From Actinoallomurus purpureus (GTDB lineage: Bacteria > Actinomycetota > Actinomycetes > Streptosporangiales > Streptosporangiaceae): a stretch of 64,000 bases of DNA. Position 1 is the stretch's first letter. Every line of letters starts with the position of its first letter. Location: contig NZ_JAMXMY010000006.1 of the NCBI RefSeq assembly GCF_024055795.1, forward strand, positions 248,001-312,000. The letters run 5' to 3'. The notes under the pieces are model-generated. The model saw only the letters and a program-made list of their open reading frames with translations. It was not told the DNA's origin and did no database searches. The position numbers and the translations under genes were made by a program. Shown in pieces: positions 27,871 to 40,070 of the stretch.

Positions 27871-28377
27871 CTATTGAGCGGAAACCAAAGCTCGACATTC
27901 GTCTTTACCGAGCGGGATGACGGCAGCGGATCTGTGAGCATCGCGATAGAGCGTGTGGGGCGCGCTCGTTGGCGGAGGGATTTTAAACTCATTGGCTGCT
28001 TGATCGAGTTCGTTCAATCCCAGTATGTCATCGTCCGTATTTCCAGGGCGCTTCGCTAGTCGGCTCTGGTAGGCGAATTGTGATGACTCGCTGCAGTGGA
28101 GACTGAACGTCAACTCCAGCCAGTAGGCATTTCCGTCGTGGCGAGTCTTGAATCTCACCTTTCCCGCACTTTTCGGCAATTCTATGGAGTGATCCGAGAG
28201 CGTGCGTCCCAAGCTGATTCCAGGGTCGCTGCCGGGCTGTGCTCGCGGATCGCTGTTCTTGTCCGATAGGGGTCCGTTCCCAAAGCCGCAGGCTCCCGCG
28301 AAGCTGATTAGGCAGAGTGGCACTGAAAACCAAGTGATCACTTGGGATGCATGCTTCGTTGCAGCTCGGCTTCGCAA
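27871..28377 (-). CDS. Small lipoprotein immediately downstream of RHS gene; candidate immunity protein
   Basis: A 168-residue predicted lipoprotein. The TTG at 28377 is chosen because GGAGGT lies 7-8 bases before it, overlapping the end of the RHS gene; a GTG at 28341 is weaker. The basic head (RSRAATKH) is followed by a hydrophobic segment ending SFAGAC, a plausible lipobox near Cys30. The mature part is beta-rich and without known motifs (KVRFKTRHDGNAYWLELTF). The gene begins 7 bases after the RHS stop and shares its low GC content, the usual arrangement of a polymorphic toxin and its immunity protein. Export to the membrane face would suit an incoming or surface-active toxin. The immunity role is inference. 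Confidence 0.6.
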   Translation of the reverse strand: MRSRAATKHASQVITWFSVPLCLISFAGACGFGNGPLSDKNSDPRAQPGSDPGISLGRTLSDHSIELPKSAGKVRFKTRHDGNAYWLELTFSLHCSESSQFAYQSRLAKRPGNTDDDILGLNELDQAANEFKIPPPTSAPHTLYRDAHRSAAVIPLGKDECRALVSAQ

Positions 28378-28383
28378 GAGAGT

Positions 28384-31300
28384 TTACCTCCATGGCCAAT
28401 ATACTGAACCCGGGTCAACACCGTCCACGCGGCGTGTGATCGTTACCGAACCATACACGTCGAAGTCGCGTGCTACTCCCGATGTGTGGAGGTGGGAAAT
28501 GTCCTCCTGTGGTATCTGGCCTACCAGGGGGAAGTTTACGGGCCGGCGTCCCTCCTCCTTGGTTCCAAAGTTGTACCGTTTGTAGAAGTCTACTCTATAG
28601 GTTTGGTATACCGTCTTGCCGTCTGTGGAGTAGGAGCCGCCGCTAACTCGGACCTGGTATCCATTGAATGCATAATACAGATCTAGATTTTCTCTTTCGT
28701 TGAATCTAGTACTCTTCCATCCGGTGTCGAAGGCGAGCTCTCCCTTGTGTGCTTCGACCAGGCTCTTAACTAGGGAATTCATCGATGGGCTCCGTGCCAT
28801 AAGGGCCTTGGGGTCGGTCACTACTGGAGACCCTGAGTTGTCCAGCCAATGATTGAGTAGATAGCTGGCTGCAGGGGCCTTCCCTGATACCACCCCGCCC
28901 ACAACGACAAGCCCAAGCTTGCTTTGAACTTCCCTATCTCTACTTGATGGTTTTTCAACGTTGTATGGTCGGACGTCGGTTTTTGCCCACCTCGGAGGCT
29001 CGCCGTCGAAGTACGGAACCGAAGCAGGAGTCGACCCAGAGCCACTATCCATGGCGCTGGTGGGAGTGATCTCCGGTGGTGCCTGTGATGCTAGTGACAG
29101 ATTTGAAACGACAGGTCCGGCGGCCTTCACTGCGTTGGCGTGGATGGCGTTCAGTGAGGCCGATGTATCGCGTACGACGTTGTGCGTCTGGGACGTCTTG
29201 GCGGCAGGCTGCCGGGGGTTCTTGGATACCTTCTCTCGCGGGTCGGCGAAGTGGGGGAGCCTGGCCTTCTTGTTGATCCCGAAGGCGTGGTGCTTGGCGG
29301 CGTAGGCCGCTTGGCGGCGGGCGGCCTCGGTCCGGCGCCTTGCGAGTTCGGCCGGCGAAGGTCCCCTGTGGACCTGGCCGCCTCCGCCGCCCGTTGATCC
29401 ACCGTTCGAGCCGCCGCCTCCGCTGCCGGGGTTGCCCCCTCCACCGCCGCCACCACATCCGTCGGTGCTCATGAGCATGCAGGGGGAAGGGGGCGTGCTG
29501 CTGCAGGGGTAGCTGATCCCGTATTTACTGCACCAGTAACCACCGTTATCGCCACAGCCGCTGCTCAGCGTGGTCATCCGCGCATCGCAGGGGTTATGGC
29601 CGGTGGGATCGCTGTTGTCGAGCGGGTCGCCGTCGCCGTAGGTGTAGCGGTTCGCGCTGACCGAAGCGGGGCTCGGGTCGAGGCTCCAGCTGTCACGGGA
29701 GCTGAAGCTGCCCTGACTTGGGTCGTACCAGCGGGCGCCCATATTGACGTTGCCGGTATCCGGGTCGGTCCAGGCGCCTTGGAAGCCGAGGTTGGATCGC
29801 GTCCCGGACGCTGCGGTCACCTGCCCGAACGGGTCATAGGCGGTTGAGCTGGTGAGCGCGTTGAGGTCGGCCGTCGGGCTGAAGTCACCGATCAGGTCAC
29901 CGTGGTCGTCCGTCAGCGGGATACGCGCGTCACTGCCCTGTCCGGTGGCCAGGACCCCATCGTCCGGGCCGCGCGCGTATCGGCTGGTGCCGTCGGTGAC
30001 GGGCGCGGCGCTGAGACCGGCATAGCTGAAGGCAGTGCCGTTGCGATCGGCCGGCCGGTCGAGCCCGTCGTATGTGTAATGGGTGGCGTCGTCGGCGATG
30101 AGCCGGTCGAAGGCGTCGAAGTCGAACTTCTCTTGCTTCCCGTCCGTGGTCTTGGACGCGACGGTGCCGCGGGGGGTGTAGGTGTAGGCGTCGGGTCCGT
30201 CGGTGATACGGCGATTGCGCTCGTCGAAGGTGGCCGATCGGTCCCCGGCCTTGGTGCGGTTTCCGGAGTCGTCCCAGGCGTAGGCGGTGGTCTTGTCGCC
30301 CTGTTTCCAGGACGTAAGCCGGTTGGCCTGGTCATAGGTGTAGGTGTTCTCGCCTGCGCCCGCGGTTCCGACGGTGGTCTTGCTCGTCGTGTTGTCGTTG
30401 TCGTCGTAGCCGTAGCTCACCGACGCGACGGTGTTCCCGGCCGCGTTCTTCAGGGTGTCGGACTTGGGGCGGGACAGGTCGTCGTAGCCGACGGTCAGCG
30501 TCCGGCCCGCTCCGTAGTCGATCTGGTCGAGCTGCCCGGCGTCGTCATAGCCGATCGTTCGCGTCAGGCCGGTGATGCCGTCTTGCGCGGCGTTGAGACG
30601 GCCCTTGGCGTAGCCGAAGGAACTGGTTCCCGCGCCGTCGGTACGGCTGGTGACCTGTCCGTCAGGGTTGTACGTGTAGCCGGCCTTGCCGGATGGCCCG
30701 TCAGCGGAGAGGAGCAGGTCCCGGTCGTTGTAGGTGTAGGTGTTCTTGTCATTGCCGGCGTTGACCTCCGTGAGGCGGCCGGCCTGGTCGTAGCTGCGGA
30801 TCCGGTCGGCGGTCGGTGCCTCCGCTCCGGTACCCGTTTCCTGCAGCACTCGCCCGTTCGCGTCGAACGTGCGTTCCTGGGTCACGCCGCCAGGTGCGGT
30901 GAGCTTGAATGGGTTCCCCGCCTTGTCGTAGGAGGCGGTCCAGGTTCGGTCGGCCGCATTCGGGGTCGCGCTGGTGGCCGGCTCGATGACCGCCTCGGGT
31001 AGTCCGAGGCTGTTCACCGTGTAGACGGTCGAATTACCACGCCCGTCGGTGAAGCGGGTTCGATCGCCCGCGGCGTCGTAGCCGAAAGTCGTGGTGATCG
31101 ATGAGTTGTCGGTGACGGGCTCGACTTGCCTGGTCAGTTGGTTCGCGGCGTCGTAGCCAAAGGTCGTCGTGTGGTGGAGGGCGTCGGTCGCCTCCGTCGG
31201 GTTCCCGGCGGGGTCGTAGGCGTACTTGGCCCTGCGAAGCTCGTTGCCCTTCGGGTCGAGGTCCGCCTGATCGACCAACTGCCCGAAGAGGTCGTAATCC

Positions 31301-34300
31301 GATCGGGTGGTACGCCCCAGACCATCGCTGACGCGGACCTGCCTGCCCCCGAAGTCGTAGCCGTACTGGGCGACGGTTCCGGCCGGGTCGGTGGCCTTTG
31401 TCAGCTCGCCGACCTTGTCGTAGACGTTCACGGCCGTCGCCCCGCTCGGCCTGGCCGTTCCGACGAGGTTGTCCGCATCGTCGTACGAGTTGCGGGTTAT
31501 GTAGTTCTCCGCGTTCGGGTAGCGCTCCACCTGGGTCGTGGTGACCTGGCGATCAAGATCGTCGTACGTCGCCTCGAGGCGGGCACCGAGCGGACCGGTG
31601 ACCGATAGCAGCTGTCCGGTGCGCGTGTGGGTGTAGCGGGTCTTGGCGCGGTCGTCGTCGTCCTTGGCCGGTTCGTCCGCCGCGCTCACGTGGTTGAGCC
31701 GGTCGTAGGTGTAGCGGCTGGTGTTGTCGCGCGGGTCGATGACCTCGGTGGTGTTTCCGAGGGCGTCGTACTTGAACCGGGTCGTCGGCGTGAGCGGTGT
31801 CGTCGATCCAGGCGGCGTGTAGGACGGCGCGGTCGCCTTCACGATCCGGCCGAGTTTGTCGTACTCGATCCGGTTGATGTTTCCGAGCGGGTCTTTGGCT
31901 TCCGTCTGCTCGTCGAACGCGCTGTAGCCCGTCACGCTCTCGGGCCGGACGGTGCCGGGTGCACCGCCGTTGCTCTCCGCCGCGACGGGCGGCCCGGTCG
32001 TCTTCACCGGACGTCCGAGCTCGTCGTAGTCGACGTTGGTGGTGAAGGCGGTCTTGTCGGCTCCGGCCACATTGCCGCGGGGATCGGTGATCGAGGTGGT
32101 CAGGCCGCGCTGGTCGTACCCGTATGTGGTGACGCGGGTGTCGGTACCGTTGATCTCGGTCTGTTTGCTGAGGCGTTCGGCCGCGTCGTATTCGTAGCCG
32201 ACGGTCTGCGCCGCGGTCGGCATCGGCCACGTGACGTTGGACGCCAGGCCGGACCAGGCGAGCTGGGTGACGTTCCCCGCATGGTCGTAGGCGTAGGCGG
32301 TGCGGCGGTTCAGCCCGCCCGGGTCGAGGGTCGTGGCCTTGAGCTGGCCGCTTTCATCGAATTCGTTCTGGGTGATCGTCGTACCGTTGCCCGTGGTCTC
32401 CTTGGCCGGGTTTCCGTCTCCGTCGTACTCAAGGGCCTGGAGGACGTAGTCACGCTTCGTCCCGTCGGGGTTGTGGAAGCCCTTGAGGGTGACGTTCTTG
32501 AGCAGGTCGTCGCCGTAATAGGCGTAATCGATCTCCCGTCCCATCGCGTCGGTGTCCCGTACCTGCCGGCCGGCCCAGTCGTAGGCGTAGGAGTGCAGGA
32601 CGAGGTAGTCACCGGTGTCAGGAGCCCCATCCGGATCACCGTCGTAGTCCCGGAGCCGAACTTCGGCGATCATGTTCCGCGCGGTGTAGCGGTACTCGTA
32701 CCGGTTCTGGTTCCCGTCGACCATCGCGGTGACGTTGCCGGACCTGTCGTAGTCGTAGTCGGTCTCGTTCCCCTCCGGGTCGGTGACCTTCTCGACGCGG
32801 TCGTGATCGTCGTAGTCGAACGTCGCGACCCGTGGTACGGCGTCCGGTGCCGTGTCGCTGCTCTGGAGCCTTAGGAGGTTCCCGTCGTCGTCATAGGCAC
32901 TGTCGGTCCGAAGCTGCTGGGCGGTACCGGTCACCGCGTTCTTCGCCGCCGGGTAGATGACGCTGGTCATCCGTGACAACTCGTCGTACCCGTAGGACGT
33001 GGTGGCTCCGCCGGGAACGCTGTCGGACACGACCGTCTGAGAGGCCCGCCGGCCGAGCTCGTCGTAGGTGTACTTGGTCACCAGGTCGGACGGATCGGTG
33101 ATCTGAGCCAGGTCGCCGTTGCTGTAGTAGGCGTAACGCGTCGTGGCGCTCCGGGCGTCGGCGGCGGTGAGGAGCAACCCCGCGGGCATCTGACCGCCAC
33201 CTGTGGCGGGCTCGGTTCCGTTCGTATAGGTGTACTTGATCAATCCGCCATCGGGGTTGGCCTGTGTCGCCAGGTTCCCCATGGTGGTGTAGGTGTAGGC
33301 GGTCTTGTAGCGGTTGTCGGTCGCGCTGGTCGATCGTGCGTCCCGGGTTTCGAGAGGCCGGTCGTTACGCGGATCGGCGAGGTTGGTCACCGTGGCGGGG
33401 TAGGTGGAGTACGCGGTGTGGCAGTCGCCTTTCGCCCGGCAGGTCGTACGCGACGTGATGTTGCCGCGCTGGTCGTACCCGAAGTTGATCGAGTCGCCGT
33501 TCTCGTTGGTGACGAGGGAGAGGTATCCGTCGTCGTCATAGTCGTAGGTGCGAAGCGCCATCCCGTCCAGGTCGTGCCGGACGAAGTCCGGCTCGTCGCC
33601 GGTTCCGGGCGGCAGAGTGGTGCAGAACGTCGGGTCGCCCGGGTCTGGGCTGGTGCAGGTGTACGTCGGCGACGGGGTCGGGCTCGGGGAGTCGGAGGGT
33701 TCGTCGTCACGAGCGCCCAAGCCGGTCGGCATCCCGAGCCGGACCATGGCTCCGGTCAGGGCGTCGTACTCGTACAGGTACGGGTGGTCGGCCGGGTCAC
33801 TGACCTCGACCGCCCGCCGGAGGTTCGTGTCATCGCCGTAGACGACCGGTTTCTTGATCTTCCAGGTTCCACCGTCTTGGTCGGTGTACTCCGAGACGCG
33901 GTCGGCCTCGGTGTCATAGTCGATCTCGGCGGCGGTGGTTCCGTTCGGTAGCGTCACTTTGGTGACCTGGTCGGAGGTGCGCAGCGCCTCGCGGTAGTGC
34001 GCCGCGACGGCCTCGGGTCCGAGCGGATGCTGATAGATGGCGGTCTCGTCGATGGTGCCGGCGAAGAAGCGCTTGGGGCTGCTGCCCCAACCGGGCCAGG
34101 ATCCGGGCGTGGTGGCGTACGCCGCGCCGATCTGGTCGTAGGTCAACGTGCTGTGCCCAGGGGTCTGGCCCGTCAGCGTCCCGATCGACTTCCCGTCCAG
34201 GTACAGGTTCTGGGTCGATCCCATGGCGGACAGCACGGCGTGGTGCCACTTGCCGTCGTTGACCGCGACGAGAGAAGTGATCGGGGAGATCGCGCCGCTC

Positions 34301-37300
34301 CAGAACTGTCCGCGCAGCTTCCCGTCCGTGCCCACGTACAGGGCGGGCACCCCGAGGGTGGAGGTGGAGTCCAGTGACTTGTCCTGATAACCGATCAGGG
34401 GACCGCCCAGGCCGGTGGCGATCGTCTTGAACCAGACCTCGACCGCGAGATCGCGGCTCTTCTTCACCGCGCCGTTCGGCAGCGCCACGTAGGAGGTGTT
34501 GCCGTTGAACGTGCCAGCGGTGTCGTTCACCCCGGTGATCGCGCCGGTCGCGCCCAGGGTCACGTTCTTGTAGGTGCCGCGGTCCTTGCCCAGATTGACC
34601 GCGATTTCGCTGTTCGCGGCCGAACCGTCGTCCTCCCCGAGGCGGTAGTAGGACTCCGGCTGGGAATCCAGGACGACGCTCCGATAGTGCGAGCCCTGGC
34701 CGTAGTCGTAGGAGGTGCATCGGTTTCCCGGGGCGCACACCGTCTTCAGCAGGTCGCCGCTGTACGTGTACACCCACGTCAGGGCCTTGCCGTTGACCGG
34801 GTCGGTGCTGACCGTCGCGACGTGGCCGCCGTTCCAGGTGAAGGACAGGGCCCGGGTTCCCGGCTGCGCCGAGACCTTGCTCAGTTTTCCGTTGCTCGTG
34901 TCGTACGTGAGCGTGACCGAATGGCCGGCGGCATCGCTGATCTTGCTCAGCCGCCCGTAGGAGAACTGATACGCGGTGCCGGTCTTGTCGACGAGCTTCC
35001 AGGAGTTCGCCGAATCGCTGGTCAGAATGGCCTGATGACCATCCGGCGGAGCGTACGAGCCGTCCGGGTTCTTGCCGAATCTCACTTGCCGACCGTCGGG
35101 ATAGGTGACCACGACGTTGCCGGAACCGTCCTGATCCTCGACCAGCTTCATGTCGTAACGCGTCGACCAGCCCGCACCGAAGGCCGCATCACGCCGCGGA
35201 TCCAGGCTGTTGTAGGTGCGTTCCACACTCAGTTCCGGCCCCACAGACGCGACCGACGCGTCCAGCGCGCTGGAGGAGTAGTTACCGACCTGTGGGTTGA
35301 AGTCCCGGCCTTGGGAGTCCTGCGTCGCGTCGGCCAGCTTGGATGTCACCACGGGCTGCGGCACCGAGGCGAGCAGCGCCACGCGAGGTGAGGGCACCTC
35401 GCTGCCGGTGTCCTTGACGAAGACACGCCAAAGGTACGCCCTGCTCCATGACAGCTTTCCGGCCGGCACGGTCCACGCCCAGGCTGTCGAATAGCCCGAG
35501 TCGAAGCAGTTGGCGGCGCTGCCATCGGGCTGGCGCTCGCAGACTTCGAACTTGTACTGCAGCGTCGAGCCGGTCGGGGCGTCCAGGTCCACCGCCGTAG
35601 CCCACAGCTCGGGAGTCAGCGTGGGCGCCTGGTACCCGTTCTCCGGATACAGGCCCTGCAGCACTGGCGGGATGTCAATGATCTTGATGATCAGACGGAC
35701 CGGTGGAACCTGCTCGTCAATGAACACCGGGCCGCCGGTGTGGACCATCGTGAAGTCGATCGAGTACGTACCGGGCTTCAGCGGTTTGATCGTCGCGTCG
35801 AGCTTCACCTTCGCGCCGCGCGCCACGTCCTGCGTCAGGTTGGCCGATCGCTGCTGAGTGACGATCTTGCCCTTGGTGTCGTAGACGCGGTACCCGAGGT
35901 AGTAGGTGCTCGGCGTCCACGTCTCCGCACCCAGGTTCTTGACGGCGATCTTGATCTTGCCGTTCTGGGCCTGGGTGACCGGTGGGTTCGGCACGGGGTC
36001 GGTGATCGAGTAGGAGGCGTTGTACGCGCTGTGCGTGACGAACAAGCGCGGCGGGTTCGCCGTGTCGTAGCCGGTGAACTTCTTGTAACCGAGGCCGTCG
36101 GACGATCCGTCGCGCACCGAAAGCCCATAGTCGGGCTGGTCTCCGTTGACCCATCGCTGAACCAGGTCACGGCCGCCCTTACCGAGGTCGATCAGCTGGG
36201 CCTTCTTCGGCGGGCAGGCCGACTTGGTGGAGCCGGTCGCGATGTAGCCATAGGAGAAAGACGAGCGCGCAACGGGCGAACTCGTGTTCGGCCCCGGATA
36301 CGCCAGCCCAGACTTCCCCGCCCAAGCCTCGGTGACCGGGTTCACCGTGACCGGCCGCGACCGGCATGTCGCCGAGTCATAATTGACCAGCGAGAGCCAC
36401 GCTCCGAAGATCCGGTGGTACTTCAGCTTCTCTTCGAGCTGCGGGAACGACAGGTACGCGGCCGATCGGGCACCGATGGTCAGGTCCTGCGCGCCGCTGC
36501 TGGCCCCACTGTCGCTGACCGATATCCCGGAGCCCGCGACCGAGGTGAAGACGCTCGGGTCGATCTTGACGGGATATGTACGTGCCTTGTCGTGCAGCCA
36601 TCCGGGATCAGCAGTCACCTGGAGCGCCGGAGTCCCTCCGGACGAGATGACGCGATAGGTCACGCCCGTGGAAGTCTGCGGCTTCGCCCCGGAATCCGTC
36701 ATGGAGCCGGCCGGGATCACGGCGCGGGTGCGACCTGCCGCGTCGGTGAAGATGACCTGCCCACCGGTCACTTGGGCGGTAAGGCCCTCCAGCTGGAGGG
36801 GGAACACGAAGCTGCTGGGCGCGTCGGCCGAGCGCAGCACGATCGTCTCTTTGACGCCGCCAGGCGCGATGTCGAGCTTCAGATCGGTATCGGGCCTGAC
36901 ATCCGGGTAGAGGACGTTCTGCTCACCCGCAGTGCCAGGCGCCTTCGCTGAGTCCTGCAGCCCGAAGGCGATCGCGTGGTCAGAGTCCACACCGATCTGG
37001 ACCATTCCCGCCGAGCCGGCCTGTGCCGCCAGCCGGACGTCCACCGCGTCGGCCGTGTTCCTCCAACCCGCAGGGGGCGTTGAGGTGTCTCCGTTGTCTC
37101 CAGCACCACGGGCGGTGCCGCTCTCACCTACCGGTGTGACGTGGGTGTCGATCGGCGCCCAGCTCCCGTCGGCTCGCCGAAAATTGATCGGGCCGGGAGA
37201 GAGCTCGGTCGTCTGCGAACCGTCCGGGTTGATCACGGTCCGTGTGTTTGCGTCCACGAGCTGCGGCGTGCCGTCGGCCCTCTGGACGTCACCCGTGGCG

Positions 37301-37665
37301 AGATCCGTGGCGAACCGTTGTGCCTCGGGTGTTGAGGACGATGAGACCTGCGCACGAGCCACAGAGGCGACGTTCGGCTGCACCGATCGGGCCTGCATGG
37401 ACTGCGTCACCGGGTACCGCGATCGCAAGGTTCGGGGTTCGCGACGATTCCGTTGCGAGCCGACCAGGTGCGGCAGTCTTTTTGCCGATCCCCACATCTG
37501 CCGCGGTGCGCGATGGCTCGGCACACCGTGTCCGACCGTCACCGGTATCTGCGCCGGCCCGACTACCACGAGCAACGCCATGATCGCGGCGGTCAGCCGA
37601 AGCCATGCATAAGGCTGGCCGGTAATCCGTAGCAGCGAAGGGACTGAGTGGAAGCGACCGCGCAC
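28384..37665 (-). CDS. Giant secreted RHS/YD-repeat protein with variable C-terminal tip
   Basis: A 3,093-residue protein starting at a GTG after GGGGGA. Residues 1-48 are a signal sequence (LRLTAAIMALLVVVG). In order: a beta-rich N-terminal part to about 380; a DNRLRE-like domain about 382-545; a CARDB-like domain about 558-655; an Ig-like domain to about 750; the RHS start (SSALDASVASVGPELSVERTYN) near 790; a LamG-like domain about 1000-1210 inside the repeats; many YD repeats to about 2635; and the RHS core end GARWYDPSQGSFSSRDSW near 2643. A Cys/Gly/Ser-rich linker follows (about 2690-2775), then a 200-residue tip with DFYKRYNFGTKEEGRR and LHTSGVARDFDVYG. RHS shells enclose and deliver C-terminal toxins. 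The tip is of unknown activity and differs in base composition from the core. Confidence 0.9.
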   Translation of the reverse strand: MRGRFHSVPSLLRITGQPYAWLRLTAAIMALLVVVGPAQIPVTVGHGVPSHRAPRQMWGSAKRLPHLVGSQRNRREPRTLRSRYPVTQSMQARSVQPNVASVARAQVSSSSTPEAQRFATDLATGDVQRADGTPQLVDANTRTVINPDGSQTTELSPGPINFRRADGSWAPIDTHVTPVGESGTARGAGDNGDTSTPPAGWRNTADAVDVRLAAQAGSAGMVQIGVDSDHAIAFGLQDSAKAPGTAGEQNVLYPDVRPDTDLKLDIAPGGVKETIVLRSADAPSSFVFPLQLEGLTAQVTGGQVIFTDAAGRTRAVIPAGSMTDSGAKPQTSTGVTYRVISSGGTPALQVTADPGWLHDKARTYPVKIDPSVFTSVAGSGISVSDSGASSGAQDLTIGARSAAYLSFPQLEEKLKYHRIFGAWLSLVNYDSATCRSRPVTVNPVTEAWAGKSGLAYPGPNTSSPVARSSFSYGYIATGSTKSACPPKKAQLIDLGKGGRDLVQRWVNGDQPDYGLSVRDGSSDGLGYKKFTGYDTANPPRLFVTHSAYNASYSITDPVPNPPVTQAQNGKIKIAVKNLGAETWTPSTYYLGYRVYDTKGKIVTQQRSANLTQDVARGAKVKLDATIKPLKPGTYSIDFTMVHTGGPVFIDEQVPPVRLIIKIIDIPPVLQGLYPENGYQAPTLTPELWATAVDLDAPTGSTLQYKFEVCERQPDGSAANCFDSGYSTAWAWTVPAGKLSWSRAYLWRVFVKDTGSEVPSPRVALLASVPQPVVTSKLADATQDSQGRDFNPQVGNYSSSALDASVASVGPELSVERTYNSLDPRRDAAFGAGWSTRYDMKLVEDQDGSGNVVVTYPDGRQVRFGKNPDGSYAPPDGHQAILTSDSANSWKLVDKTGTAYQFSYGRLSKISDAAGHSVTLTYDTSNGKLSKVSAQPGTRALSFTWNGGHVATVSTDPVNGKALTWVYTYSGDLLKTVCAPGNRCTSYDYGQGSHYRSVVLDSQPESYYRLGEDDGSAANSEIAVNLGKDRGTYKNVTLGATGAITGVNDTAGTFNGNTSYVALPNGAVKKSRDLAVEVWFKTIATGLGGPLIGYQDKSLDSTSTLGVPALYVGTDGKLRGQFWSGAISPITSLVAVNDGKWHHAVLSAMGSTQNLYLDGKSIGTLTGQTPGHSTLTYDQIGAAYATTPGSWPGWGSSPKRFFAGTIDETAIYQHPLGPEAVAAHYREALRTSDQVTKVTLPNGTTAAEIDYDTEADRVSEYTDQDGGTWKIKKPVVYGDDTNLRRAVEVSDPADHPYLYEYDALTGAMVRLGMPTGLGARDDEPSDSPSPTPSPTYTCTSPDPGDPTFCTTLPPGTGDEPDFVRHDLDGMALRTYDYDDDGYLSLVTNENGDSINFGYDQRGNITSRTTCRAKGDCHTAYSTYPATVTNLADPRNDRPLETRDARSTSATDNRYKTAYTYTTMGNLATQANPDGGLIKYTYTNGTEPATGGGQMPAGLLLTAADARSATTRYAYYSNGDLAQITDPSDLVTKYTYDELGRRASQTVVSDSVPGGATTSYGYDELSRMTSVIYPAAKNAVTGTAQQLRTDSAYDDDGNLLRLQSSDTAPDAVPRVATFDYDDHDRVEKVTDPEGNETDYDYDRSGNVTAMVDGNQNRYEYRYTARNMIAEVRLRDYDGDPDGAPDTGDYLVLHSYAYDWAGRQVRDTDAMGREIDYAYYGDDLLKNVTLKGFHNPDGTKRDYVLQALEYDGDGNPAKETTGNGTTITQNEFDESGQLKATTLDPGGLNRRTAYAYDHAGNVTQLAWSGLASNVTWPMPTAAQTVGYEYDAAERLSKQTEINGTDTRVTTYGYDQRGLTTSITDPRGNVAGADKTAFTTNVDYDELGRPVKTTGPPVAAESNGGAPGTVRPESVTGYSAFDEQTEAKDPLGNINRIEYDKLGRIVKATAPSYTPPGSTTPLTPTTRFKYDALGNTTEVIDPRDNTSRYTYDRLNHVSAADEPAKDDDDRAKTRYTHTRTGQLLSVTGPLGARLEATYDDLDRQVTTTQVERYPNAENYITRNSYDDADNLVGTARPSGATAVNVYDKVGELTKATDPAGTVAQYGYDFGGRQVRVSDGLGRTTRSDYDLFGQLVDQADLDPKGNELRRAKYAYDPAGNPTEATDALHHTTTFGYDAANQLTRQVEPVTDNSSITTTFGYDAAGDRTRFTDGRGNSTVYTVNSLGLPEAVIEPATSATPNAADRTWTASYDKAGNPFKLTAPGGVTQERTFDANGRVLQETGTGAEAPTADRIRSYDQAGRLTEVNAGNDKNTYTYNDRDLLLSADGPSGKAGYTYNPDGQVTSRTDGAGTSSFGYAKGRLNAAQDGITGLTRTIGYDDAGQLDQIDYGAGRTLTVGYDDLSRPKSDTLKNAAGNTVASVSYGYDDNDNTTSKTTVGTAGAGENTYTYDQANRLTSWKQGDKTTAYAWDDSGNRTKAGDRSATFDERNRRITDGPDAYTYTPRGTVASKTTDGKQEKFDFDAFDRLIADDATHYTYDGLDRPADRNGTAFSYAGLSAAPVTDGTSRYARGPDDGVLATGQGSDARIPLTDDHGDLIGDFSPTADLNALTSSTAYDPFGQVTAASGTRSNLGFQGAWTDPDTGNVNMGARWYDPSQGSFSSRDSWSLDPSPASVSANRYTYGDGDPLDNSDPTGHNPCDARMTTLSSGCGDNGGYWCSKYGISYPCSSTPPSPCMLMSTDGCGGGGGGGNPGSGGGGSNGGSTGGGGGQVHRGPSPAELARRRTEAARRQAAYAAKHHAFGINKKARLPHFADPREKVSKNPRQPAAKTSQTHNVVRDTSASLNAIHANAVKAAGPVVSNLSLASQAPPEITPTSAMDSGSGSTPASVPYFDGEPPRWAKTDVRPYNVEKPSSRDREVQSKLGLVVVGGVVSGKAPAASYLLNHWLDNSGSPVVTDPKALMARSPSMNSLVKSLVEAHKGELAFDTGWKSTRFNERENLDLYYAFNGYQVRVSGGSYSTDGKTVYQTYRVDFYKRYNFGTKEEGRRPVNFPLVGQIPQEDISHLHTSGVARDFDVYGSVTITRRVDGVDPGSVYWPWR

Positions 37666-38066: not shown

Positions 38067-40070
38067 ATGAAGAGAAAGTTTGGCGGCCTGCATTGCGGCA
38101 CTCCGCGGTCCTTGGCGACCGCGCTTGCGATGGCCGCATTGATTGGCCCGCTTCTGACGCATCCGAGCTCTGCAAATGCCTCAGACTTCGCCTGTGATAC
38201 TGAAGTCAGGCTTTACTCGATCGGGGATGGCATATTTTCGGAGTACGACCACTCAAAGGCGGATGCCGAGGACGGAGGGACTCTTTCTTCCTTCGCGGCC
38301 GATCACGGGAGTGGATGGCAGAAGTATGGCCACGTCTTCGGGGGAGCGGACGGGAGGGTATACGCGATAGAGCCCAACGGTAACCTATGGCGTTACCGTC
38401 TGAATGGTTCTGATTGGGATACTCCACTTCGCCAGCAGATTGACACCGGCTGGAGTTACTACTCTCAGGCGGCTCGCCATAATCAGGTCACCGCTGATTC
38501 TGCTGGCTACTTTTATGCAGTAGATGCCGCCGGCAAGCTGCGCATTTATCATTATGATGAAACTGCGAAGGCGTGGACCGTCCGAGGGAAGGTGATCGAT
38601 AACGGCTGGGATTCTTTCAATCTGATCGTTGCGGCCGGCAACGGCGTTCTCTATGCGCGCACGGGGGCTGGAGTGCTGCAGCGCTACATATATGACATCA
38701 ACAGCCAGCGATGGTTGGAAAGGGGTAAGCAGGTAGGTACTGGATGGCAGAAGTACAGTAATGTATTCTCTCCGGGTGGTGACGTCCTTTATGCCATACA
38801 AATGACTGCCAATGGCGCTGGGGATGTCTATTGGTACCGTTTCCTGCCCGATACTGCTACGTGGCACAAGAATTCTGGAAAGAAGATCGCTGATAATGAT
38901 AGCGGAGGTACTGTAGTACCCGACTACCCGACGACTGCGGACGCTGATGGTTGCAAGCTATCGAGGGCGGCGATTGCAACCCCGTCTAATCCAGCAGAGA
39001 GCTATACCGCAACTAATGCGATGCAGTCATCTGCGGGATCCCTTGAATACGCCTTTACCGACAATCTCGGGCGGCTCATATACGGCAGGCAGACCGATCC
39101 GGCGAACTTCGAGTCGATTCAGTGGGCGCCCTTGTCGGGAAACGAAGCGTTCTCAGGGATACCGGCGCTTGCGCAGAATCAGGACGGCCGAGTGCAGGTG
39201 GCAGCCCAGAATACGACCAGCAACGCCTGGTTGCGTACTCAGTCGGCAGCCGGCAGCTCGGATTGGAAGCCATGGGATGATCTCGCTGGTGCCATGAAGT
39301 CACATCCCGCAGTGGCACGTCTGACAGATAACTCGCTTGTCATGTTCGCCTTGGACTCGGACGGGCGATTGTGGTGTCGGCCGCAGGATGGCCCCAACGG
39401 CGATTTCATGGGATGGCGGATACTCGGGGGAACAGGGATGCGCGGTCCCATCACCACCACAGGAATCGCCAATCAGGCTGTCGCCGTGACCGCGTACGAC
39501 GCGAACGGGGCGATCAACCTGGCGACCTACCAGAACAACAAGGTCTCTGCGTGGACGGCGCTCGGCGGCTCCGGGTTTTCGGGTACTCCCTCCGTCGTGC
39601 TTTATCCGGGATATCGGCTCCGAGTCTTCGGTCGTGATGGCACGGGCAGGATCGTGACTCAGATCCAGACCGACAGCGGTGCCTTCCCTGGCACTTGGGA
39701 TGGGGTAGGCGGCAGTGGCTTCTCCGCCGCTGGCTCTCCCACTGCCGTTATCAGCCCACAGTCGGGAAAGGTCACGGCGCTCTCACGAGGTACGGACGGT
39801 CACATTTACTTCTCGACTGAGACGGCACAGGGATCTGGGGCGTTCGGTGACTGGAAGATCGCCCAGCCCGATGGGGACGCCGCGACATGGGCCACGGACC
39901 CCACTCTCTTCACCTACACAGACAGCAACGGGCCTGCTTGGGCCTACGTCGTGCGCAACACGGACAACCAGACCAGCGTCTACACGATCTCATCAACGGC
40001 CTCAAGCGCGCTCCGAGTGAACGGACCGGCTTTCACGCGGCACACCCTGCCGAAGCCGCCGCAGGGCTGA
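38067..40070 (+). CDS. Secreted tachylectin/PLL-like beta-propeller lectin
   Basis: A 667-residue secreted protein. The ATG at 38067 is preceded by GAGGAG and opens a signal peptide ending near ANA-SD (residue 39). Residues 45-290 contain repeated GW(Q/S/D)xY or F blades with VYAI, LYAR and FYAV strands, as in tachylectin-2-like propellers. Residues 320-640 form a second propeller with recurring (G/D)xxxxW(xx)LGGxG blades (GWRILGGTG, AWTALGGSGFSGT, TWDGVGGSGFSA), as in PLL-like lectins. It is divergent from the giant RHS gene, and such lectins are often found beside RHS proteins in actinomycetes, so joint surface attachment or target recognition is likely. The sugar specificity is unknown. 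Confidence 0.82.
   Translation: MKRKFGGLHCGTPRSLATALAMAALIGPLLTHPSSANASDFACDTEVRLYSIGDGIFSEYDHSKADAEDGGTLSSFAADHGSGWQKYGHVFGGADGRVYAIEPNGNLWRYRLNGSDWDTPLRQQIDTGWSYYSQAARHNQVTADSAGYFYAVDAAGKLRIYHYDETAKAWTVRGKVIDNGWDSFNLIVAAGNGVLYARTGAGVLQRYIYDINSQRWLERGKQVGTGWQKYSNVFSPGGDVLYAIQMTANGAGDVYWYRFLPDTATWHKNSGKKIADNDSGGTVVPDYPTTADADGCKLSRAAIATPSNPAESYTATNAMQSSAGSLEYAFTDNLGRLIYGRQTDPANFESIQWAPLSGNEAFSGIPALAQNQDGRVQVAAQNTTSNAWLRTQSAAGSSDWKPWDDLAGAMKSHPAVARLTDNSLVMFALDSDGRLWCRPQDGPNGDFMGWRILGGTGMRGPITTTGIANQAVAVTAYDANGAINLATYQNNKVSAWTALGGSGFSGTPSVVLYPGYRLRVFGRDGTGRIVTQIQTDSGAFPGTWDGVGGSGFSAAGSPTAVISPQSGKVTALSRGTDGHIYFSTETAQGSGAFGDWKIAQPDGDAATWATDPTLFTYTDSNGPAWAYVVRNTDNQTSVYTISSTASSALRVNGPAFTRHTLPKPPQG

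Follow-up and report, generated by a model that had tools for sequence, protein, structure and literature searches.

A low-GC RHS tip of Actinoallomurus purpureus, from a family with likely remote homology to colicin M, and its candidate lipoprotein antidote

The C-terminal tip of a large RHS protein of Actinoallomurus purpureus, together with the small lipoprotein gene that follows it, is read here as a toxin–immunity pair, and the family to which the tip is assigned is likely homologous to the catalytic domain of colicin M (ColM). Both genes lie in a 64,000-nucleotide stretch, called the window below, of contig NZ_JAMXMY010000006.1 (assembly GCF_024055795.1, positions 248,001-312,000). The toxin–immunity reading is well supported, since tip and lipoprotein gene form one compositional unit, homologous tips are found on other carriers, tips are linked to lipoprotein genes, and the nearest RHS core ends in an unrelated tip. 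Most known RHS toxins act inside cells. The mechanism proposed for this pair places its target outside the cytoplasm. The RHS protein would be exported via its N-terminal signal, and its C-terminal ~209 residues, the toxic tip of a polymorphic toxin, would be carried in the RHS shell and delivered to a neighbouring cell. There the tip would act at the outer leaflet of the membrane; its most likely activity, like that of colicin M, would be the cleavage of undecaprenyl-linked wall precursors (lipid II). The cognate lipoprotein, on the outer face of the producer’s cytoplasmic membrane, would bind the tip and block it. An extracytoplasmic partner suggests an extracytoplasmic target, as with TelC/TipC (PMC5555719) and colicin M (statements about cited articles refer to the portions of their text that were available). 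The sequence data support modular exchange, linkage to an extracytoplasmic partner and remote ColM homology of the family; we infer export, delivery, release of the tip, toxicity, neutralisation and the lipid II target. Taken as a whole, a remote colicin M-type tip that is delivered by an RHS protein, cuts lipid-linked wall precursors outside the membrane and is blocked by the lipoprotein is the reading we hold to be fairly probable. The three central features are as follows.

28384..37665, minus strand: RHS protein, carrier of the toxin tip (open reading frame (ORF) of 3093 amino acids, GTG start)
28387..29013, minus strand: toxin tip, putative remote colicin M-like domain, RHS residues 2885-3093 (homologues on other carriers and family-profile match to ColM)
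27871..28377, minus strand: candidate immunity lipoprotein, 168 amino acids, TTG start (adjacent homologues in loci L050 and L002)

The tip and the lipoprotein gene differ from the rest of the RHS gene in base composition. The tip (residues 2885-3093) has 53.6% GC and a third-position GC content (GC3) of 0.584, and the lipoprotein gene has 56.0% GC and GC3 of 0.604, against 66.5% and 0.857 for the RHS core (residues 1-2840). When the RHS gene was scanned with segments of tip length at a step of 10 codons, all 268 segments within residues 1-2884 were GC-richer than the tip (minimum 63.3%). Across the 64 kb, only 6 of 1268 such segments were as GC-poor; two lie at the tip and lipoprotein gene, and the other four (38301-39077) lie inside another ORF, one that encodes a Tachylectin domain (E 9.2e-27). 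This GC-poor ORF of 667 amino acids (38067-40067, plus strand) is located upstream of the RHS gene and is divergent from it. The composition break claimed in a preliminary description of this DNA is thus borne out, and its G/C counts (26 of 60 at 28561-28620, 41 of 60 at 31381-31440) are exact. That description placed the tip at about residues 2892-3093; the end holds, and the start can be refined, as the conserved domain begins near residue 2885 and the GC drop at about residue 2851.

The exchange of tips between carriers was visible in several comparisons. The nearest RHS core found in 8 genomes of the genus (L085) shows 40% identity over residues 1-2717 and then continues into an unrelated tip, which argues that the tip is the exchanged part; at this length one RHS core, that of L085, entered the comparison of conserved core and variable tip. 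The closest relatives of the window tip itself were found in Actinomadura rubrisoli (L002, 51% identity, in a search of named genomes) and in genome G124 (L004/L050, 58% identity, in a search of 297 same-family genomes). In both, the tip ends a protein of 364 or 368 amino acids with an ESX-like N-terminus, preceded by a WXG-like ORF. These are readings by eye, for which the libraries gave a sub-threshold PPE match in L050 only (E 0.021) and, in the distant L061, a WXG100_2 match (8.4e-9). In the tree, the RHS-borne window tip and these two ESX-borne tips make up a group of three (support 100/98), which points to carrier exchange. Homologous tips were also found on pilin-like, RHS and other carriers, in line with the exchangeable unit that had been suggested from the window alone. 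A profile built from 8 tips matched 30 of the 297 same-family genomes (44 places) and 3 of 396 genomes phylum-wide, the own genome included and the other two marginal. Plasmid records add tips in Streptomyces, Mycobacteroides and the alphaproteobacterium Polymorphobacter. A 34-residue match in L003, a Deltaproteobacteria contig, lies inside an unrelated ORF; it was taken as chance and rejected.

The pilin-like N-terminus (GASxxEY, degenerate in some) precedes the tips of L044, L045, L046, L048, L049 and L051-L060; we take it to be Flp-type. When this label was checked against Pfam, L044 had no match and the match of L060 was not to a pilin. It is possibly a delivery route for toxins, and the word “pilin” is absent from the 300,000 of 357,715 characters covered of a large toxin survey (PMC3482391). 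Two further arrangements were noted among the tip-bearing loci. L062 (3817-4722, plus strand) has a divergent tip inside a protein whose own start is a lipoprotein-like signal (VVAC). L051 (2913-3559, plus strand) contains a tip broken into pieces, the last of them still followed by a lipoprotein gene, and two intact cassettes are present in the same 13 kb.

The linkage of tips to lipoprotein genes was assessed with a script that accepts a lipobox ORF of 90-260 amino acids starting between -60 and +150 nucleotides from the stop of the tip gene. The sample comprised 34 full tips (the window, L002, L044-L071 and L089-L093), chosen mainly by score from the 44 places and the plasmid hits, and so is not random. 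It was reduced from 40 rows by removing four that cover fewer than 150 of the 199 profile positions (two rows of L051, and L067 and L071), L053 (contig end) and L061 (the same gene as L093). A lipoprotein gene lies directly downstream of 18 of the 34 tips, against 7 of 161 other ORFs from the same DNA as the fetched tips (Fisher p 5e-11). When membrane-helix neighbours are admitted, the counts become 18+2 of 34 against 7+8 of 161 (Fisher p 1e-9); the two additions are L002 and L062, and the neighbour in L062, presumably MscL-like, was counted as transmembrane by the script and is not taken as a partner. Outside the count, inspection by hand showed a membrane-anchored partner in L069, with a frame too long for the script, and in L045 a second toxin with a lipoprotein about 600 nucleotides further on. 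Lipoprotein partners also accompany the tips on the Streptomyces, Mycobacteroides and Polymorphobacter plasmids, and the Polymorphobacter tip gene overlaps its lipoprotein gene (LAGC). Linked lipoproteins next to homologous tips, a check proposed in the preliminary description, are therefore far above background. Its suggestion that a lipoprotein immunity protein would imply action at or outside the membrane gains support from the recurrence of lipoproteins or single-helix membrane proteins beside the tips.

In the window, 6 bases separate the RHS stop codon from the TTG of the lipoprotein gene, and a ribosome-binding-site-like sequence precedes the latter:

28387..28391, minus strand: GGAGG, inside the end of the RHS gene, 9 nucleotides before the lipoprotein TTG

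The lipoprotein is predicted to start with a hydrophobic signal that ends in FAGAC, a permissive, putative lipobox read by eye. The toxin genes of L002 and L050 each overlap by 4 nucleotides a gene homologous to the window lipoprotein, which is 32% identical to the L050 neighbour and 27% identical to the L002 neighbour, with 29 invariant columns; the L050 partner has the lipobox LAAC and the L002 partner a membrane helix. Neither Pfam nor PADLOC matched the window lipoprotein at E 1. When the three nearest lipoproteins were combined in a profile, it matched 4 of the 297 same-family genomes. Two of these, the own genome and G124, carry the tip, one (G143, E 7e-39) has an orphan and one (G191) is marginal, a distribution that does not resemble a lipoprotein conserved in strains that lack the tip.

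Direct library searches did not place the tip. Alone, it had no match in Pfam, NCBIfam or PADLOC; 24 tip members against Pfam, PHROGs and NCBIfam gave scattered matches of one or two members only (best E 0.0033); and the matches in PDB by sequence (best E 0.72) and by the 24-tip profile (best E 0.052) were taken as chance. The comparison with colicin M was prompted by the conserved core of the tip family (HxLxxSG, G, DxYN/D, LHxxGxAxxFxxxG). The colicin M query, its catalytic part, is identical to PDB 2xtq and retrieves cma genes annotated as lipid II-degrading bacteriocin. An alignment of 30 tips was compared by hhalign with one of 5 diverse ColM domains, giving, over 105 columns, a probability of 90.4% (E 1.4e-6); among 100 ColM alignments with shuffled columns the highest value was 0.7%, and both the reversed ColM alignment and the lipoprotein alignment against ColM gave 0.1%. 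In an hmmsearch of 2060 sequences, the tip profile ranked all 5 ColM domains among its first 6 (best E 0.0037). In the opposite direction, against 30 tips and 2055 decoys, the ColM profile placed tips at ranks 1-10 and at 19 of the top 20 (best E 0.042), with L002 and L050, the nearest relatives of the window tip, first and second. Each of these scores is weak alone, but profile matching in both directions together makes homology of the tip family to the catalytic domain of colicin M likely. The window tip is assigned to the family by its 51-58% identity to L002 and L050. The preliminary description had recognised no nuclease, deaminase or ADP-ribosylating motif in the tip; the libraries were likewise silent, and it missed the remote colicin M relationship.

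The conserved positions of the tip correspond to the following features of the window.

28831..28851, minus strand: HWLDNSG, with the invariant His (RHS residue 2939) and Gly, aligned with colicin M HYLWGNG (H and G in 30 of 30 tips)
28567..28581, minus strand: KRYNF, putatively corresponding to DxYD within the colicin M motif, its Tyr being RHS residue 3031 (Y in 30 of 30 tips)
28450..28491, minus strand: LHTSGVARDFDVYG, conserved C-terminal motif of the tip (both Gly in 30 of 30, Ala in 29 of 30 and His in 23 of 30 tips)

The motifs DFYKRYNFG and LHTSGVARDFDVYG, singled out earlier, are thus both found in the tip. In colicin M, the motif DXYDX5HR is required for hydrolase function (PMC5821083), and its Tyr is among the aligned invariants of tips and ColM. 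Two positions before this Tyr the 30 tips have D (17) or K (13), and after it N (15), D (13) or S (2); six keep DxYD. At the position of the upstream His, which all the tips share, the 5 ColM domains have H or N. Colicin M-like catalysis by the tip is judged plausible but not secured, because the Tyr is invariant and the motif is degenerate.

Several findings weigh against the proposed mechanism, and the first group concerns the partner. Sixteen of the 34 tips fail the lipoprotein test, and 14 have neither a lipoprotein nor a membrane helix next to them. In the WXG100_2-fused branch all 7 tips are without a lipoprotein, and none was seen by eye in the 8-12 kb stretches around them; 3 of 3 fetched tips of genome G057 also fail the lipoprotein test. 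The WXG100_2-fused branch, which includes a tandem pair in L089 (3824-5296 and 5656-7077, minus strand) and L090-L093, has perhaps another immunity or a domesticated role. If the partnerless full tips of L026, L029, L034 and L041 are added, which were seen only with flanks of about 1.5 kb and stand outside the 34, the linkage becomes 18 of 38 (p 4e-10). Across branches, the relatedness of the lipoproteins is weak (hhalign probability 12.5%). Moreover, the window-type lipoprotein of G143 (L098, 5434-5955, plus strand) stands without a tip in the surrounding 11 kb, and G143 is outside the 30 genomes matched by the 8-tip profile. Its GC3 is 0.68, and 5 of 8 neighbouring ORFs picked exceed 0.9. 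Orphan immunity genes are common in such systems, so this orphan weakens the case only a little. The tips without a linked lipoprotein and the G143 orphan would fit unrelated low-GC neighbours acquired together, with an adhesive or structural role for the tip at the end of the RHS protein and a housekeeping one for the lipoprotein. This we regard as improbable in view of the linkage above background, the 4-nucleotide overlaps in unrelated lineages, the several different carriers, the ColM similarity of the tip family and the rarity of the tip outside the family of the host. Nor are the homologous tips mostly stand-alone domains, the outcome that the preliminary description named as contrary to its claim, although the 14 tips with neither kind of neighbour, of which 7 belong to a single branch, fit such a pattern in part.

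The second group of these findings concerns the ColM relationship and the motif. The window tip is missing from the ColM-profile list at E 50, which contains 24 of the 30 tips, and in hhalign against ColM it reaches 0.1% alone, 13% with two relatives and 12% with four. The Pfam model Colicin_M (PF14859) matched none of 24 members at E 0.5 and none of 7 tip-bearing proteins at E 10, while colicin M itself matches it at 3e-154; in 149 phylum-wide genomes it gave no matches, but there the controls were equally silent. The window motif is KRYNF, that is, KxYN rather than DxYD, with no HR, and HR follows the motif in only two of 30 tips (L064, L065), after KRYD and with six residues between. In a review, the comparable variant IXYNX5LK is taken as a sign that activity may have been lost (PMC5821083). 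One explanation that takes account of these deviations is a genuine extracytoplasmic pair with a ColM-derived fold, in which the altered site either carries out another reaction or only binds; the substrate may be a different lipid or wall component, or lipid II may be sequestered. The KxYN motif, the rarity of HR, the His that varies between H and N in ColM and the extracytoplasmic partner all agree with it. The invariant Tyr, the DxYD kept in six tips and the alignment of the surrounding profile to ColM over 105 columns argue against it, and we consider this explanation unlikely, if the most serious of the alternatives. It may also be asked whether the tip is a decayed toxin, kept for immunity or adhesion. 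K and N stand in place of both Asp of the ColM motif, as expected of an inactive tip; the reading frame, however, is intact, and the same KRYNF is found in L002 and L050, each with a partner gene, at 51% and 58% identity, which suggests a conserved subfamily trait more than decay. Decay appears improbable, marginally more so than unrelated neighbours. Cleavage of wall precursors by the tip stays our preferred reading. A broader proposal, that the tips form a new, mainly actinobacterial branch of the colicin M superfamily with a rebuilt active site (invariant His and Tyr, K/D-x-Y-N/D), RHS, ESX and pilin-like carriers, Gram-positive wall-precursor targets and fast-diverging lipoprotein antidotes, is more tentative and falls somewhat short of an even chance.

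The proposed pair can be compared with several known systems. Colicin M acts by degrading one of the building blocks of the cell wall. The immunity proteins of the ColM family are found in association with the cytoplasmic membrane (PMC5821083). The tip family resembles the colicin M family (PF14859; colicin M, pectocins M, PaeM) in its profile, from the H-x-L...G motif to DxYD, in the invariant Tyr and in the expected extracytoplasmic action. It differs in that it falls below Pfam detection, in the KxYN of the window and the usual lack of HR, and in its RHS, ESX-like and pilin-like carriers, found here mostly in actinobacteria. The partner of the tip is a lipoprotein, unlike Cmi, with a helix anchor, and PmiA, with four membrane helices (PMC5821083). 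DUF3289 was proposed, with expression experiments, as a ColM homologue with a DUF943 partner (PMC11148199). This pair of the type VI secretion system (T6SS) is similar in that a colicin M homologue, found by structure, shows periplasmic toxicity and has a cognate partner (PMC11148199). It is a proteobacterial T6SS pair, however, and is set apart from the tip family by Pfam model and by description; at E 10, PF11692 (DUF3289) matched neither the own genome, with an E. coli control that matches, nor any of 8 proteins searched. Another novel toxin domain has been grouped with the colicin M fold; its carriers are cystatin-like and its immunity protein is membrane-anchored and BamE-like (PMC12419801). 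It likewise extends the ColM-fold polymorphic toxins past classical ColM and has a partner anchored in the membrane; no cystatin-like carrier was recognised here, and as the comparison is by description only, the families may overlap. In the part of the PMC3482391 collection that was available, Imm65 is the only lipoprotein immunity. Like the window lipoprotein it has a lipobox anchor, but it is linked to another toxin, Tox-JAB-1, and the window lipoprotein has no Pfam match at the threshold given above.

The Streptococcus TelC/TipC pair of the type VII secretion system (T7SS), of the lipocone superfamily, is also alike, with a secreted toxin acting outside on lipid II and an immunity protein acting outside the cytoplasm, and the tip could accordingly be a TelC-like lipid II phosphatase with a TipC-like partner. 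TelC is T7SS-delivered, acts on lipid II outside the cell and is countered by TipC (PMC5555719, PMC12419801), and several tips ride on ESX-like proteins. However, TelC is largely alpha-helical with an aspartate-rich motif, its motif and, on the best reading, probably also its fold being different, and it is the ColM domain to which the tip family aligns; this alternative we consider very improbable. TelC had been the initial lead for the identity of the tip and was dropped, as no TelC was among the PDB chains at E 10 with the 24-tip profile and no aspartate-rich motif was seen by eye. In the literature searched, at the level of titles and the beginnings of abstracts, no description of this actinobacterial tip family was found, and novelty at family level is provisional. 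If the proposed mechanism is correct, an actinobacterial RHS tip and its lipoprotein antidote would bring the strategy of colicin M to warfare among Gram-positive bacteria, and a function would be given to a family that the searched libraries do not recognise. The altered active site would be a natural test of which colicin M residues catalysis needs.

The remainder of the RHS protein shows the arrangement by which RHS polymorphic toxins are recognised, with RHS/YD repeats and a core-associated domain ahead of the C-terminal tip. Pfam RHS_repeat was matched in 21 stretches, together with DUF6531 and Laminin_G_3, and NCBIfam gave YD repeats and Rhs_assc_core.

37531..37614, minus strand: hydrophobic, putative export-signal-like segment, RHS residues ~18-45 (read by eye from the translation)
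35077..35298, minus strand: DUF6531 domain, residues 790-863 (Pfam, E 1.7e-13)
34003..34506, minus strand: Laminin_G_3 lectin-like domain within the RHS protein, residues 1054-1221 (Pfam, E 9.9e-18)
29596..29838, minus strand: RHS repeat-associated core domain, end of the RHS shell, residues 2610-2690 (TIGR03696, E 1.6e-18)

A second RHS protein is encoded in the same genome (L086, 1814-9040, plus strand). It has a different tip, with a stretch that we take to be HINT-like, and is followed by a different downstream ORF of 172 amino acids.

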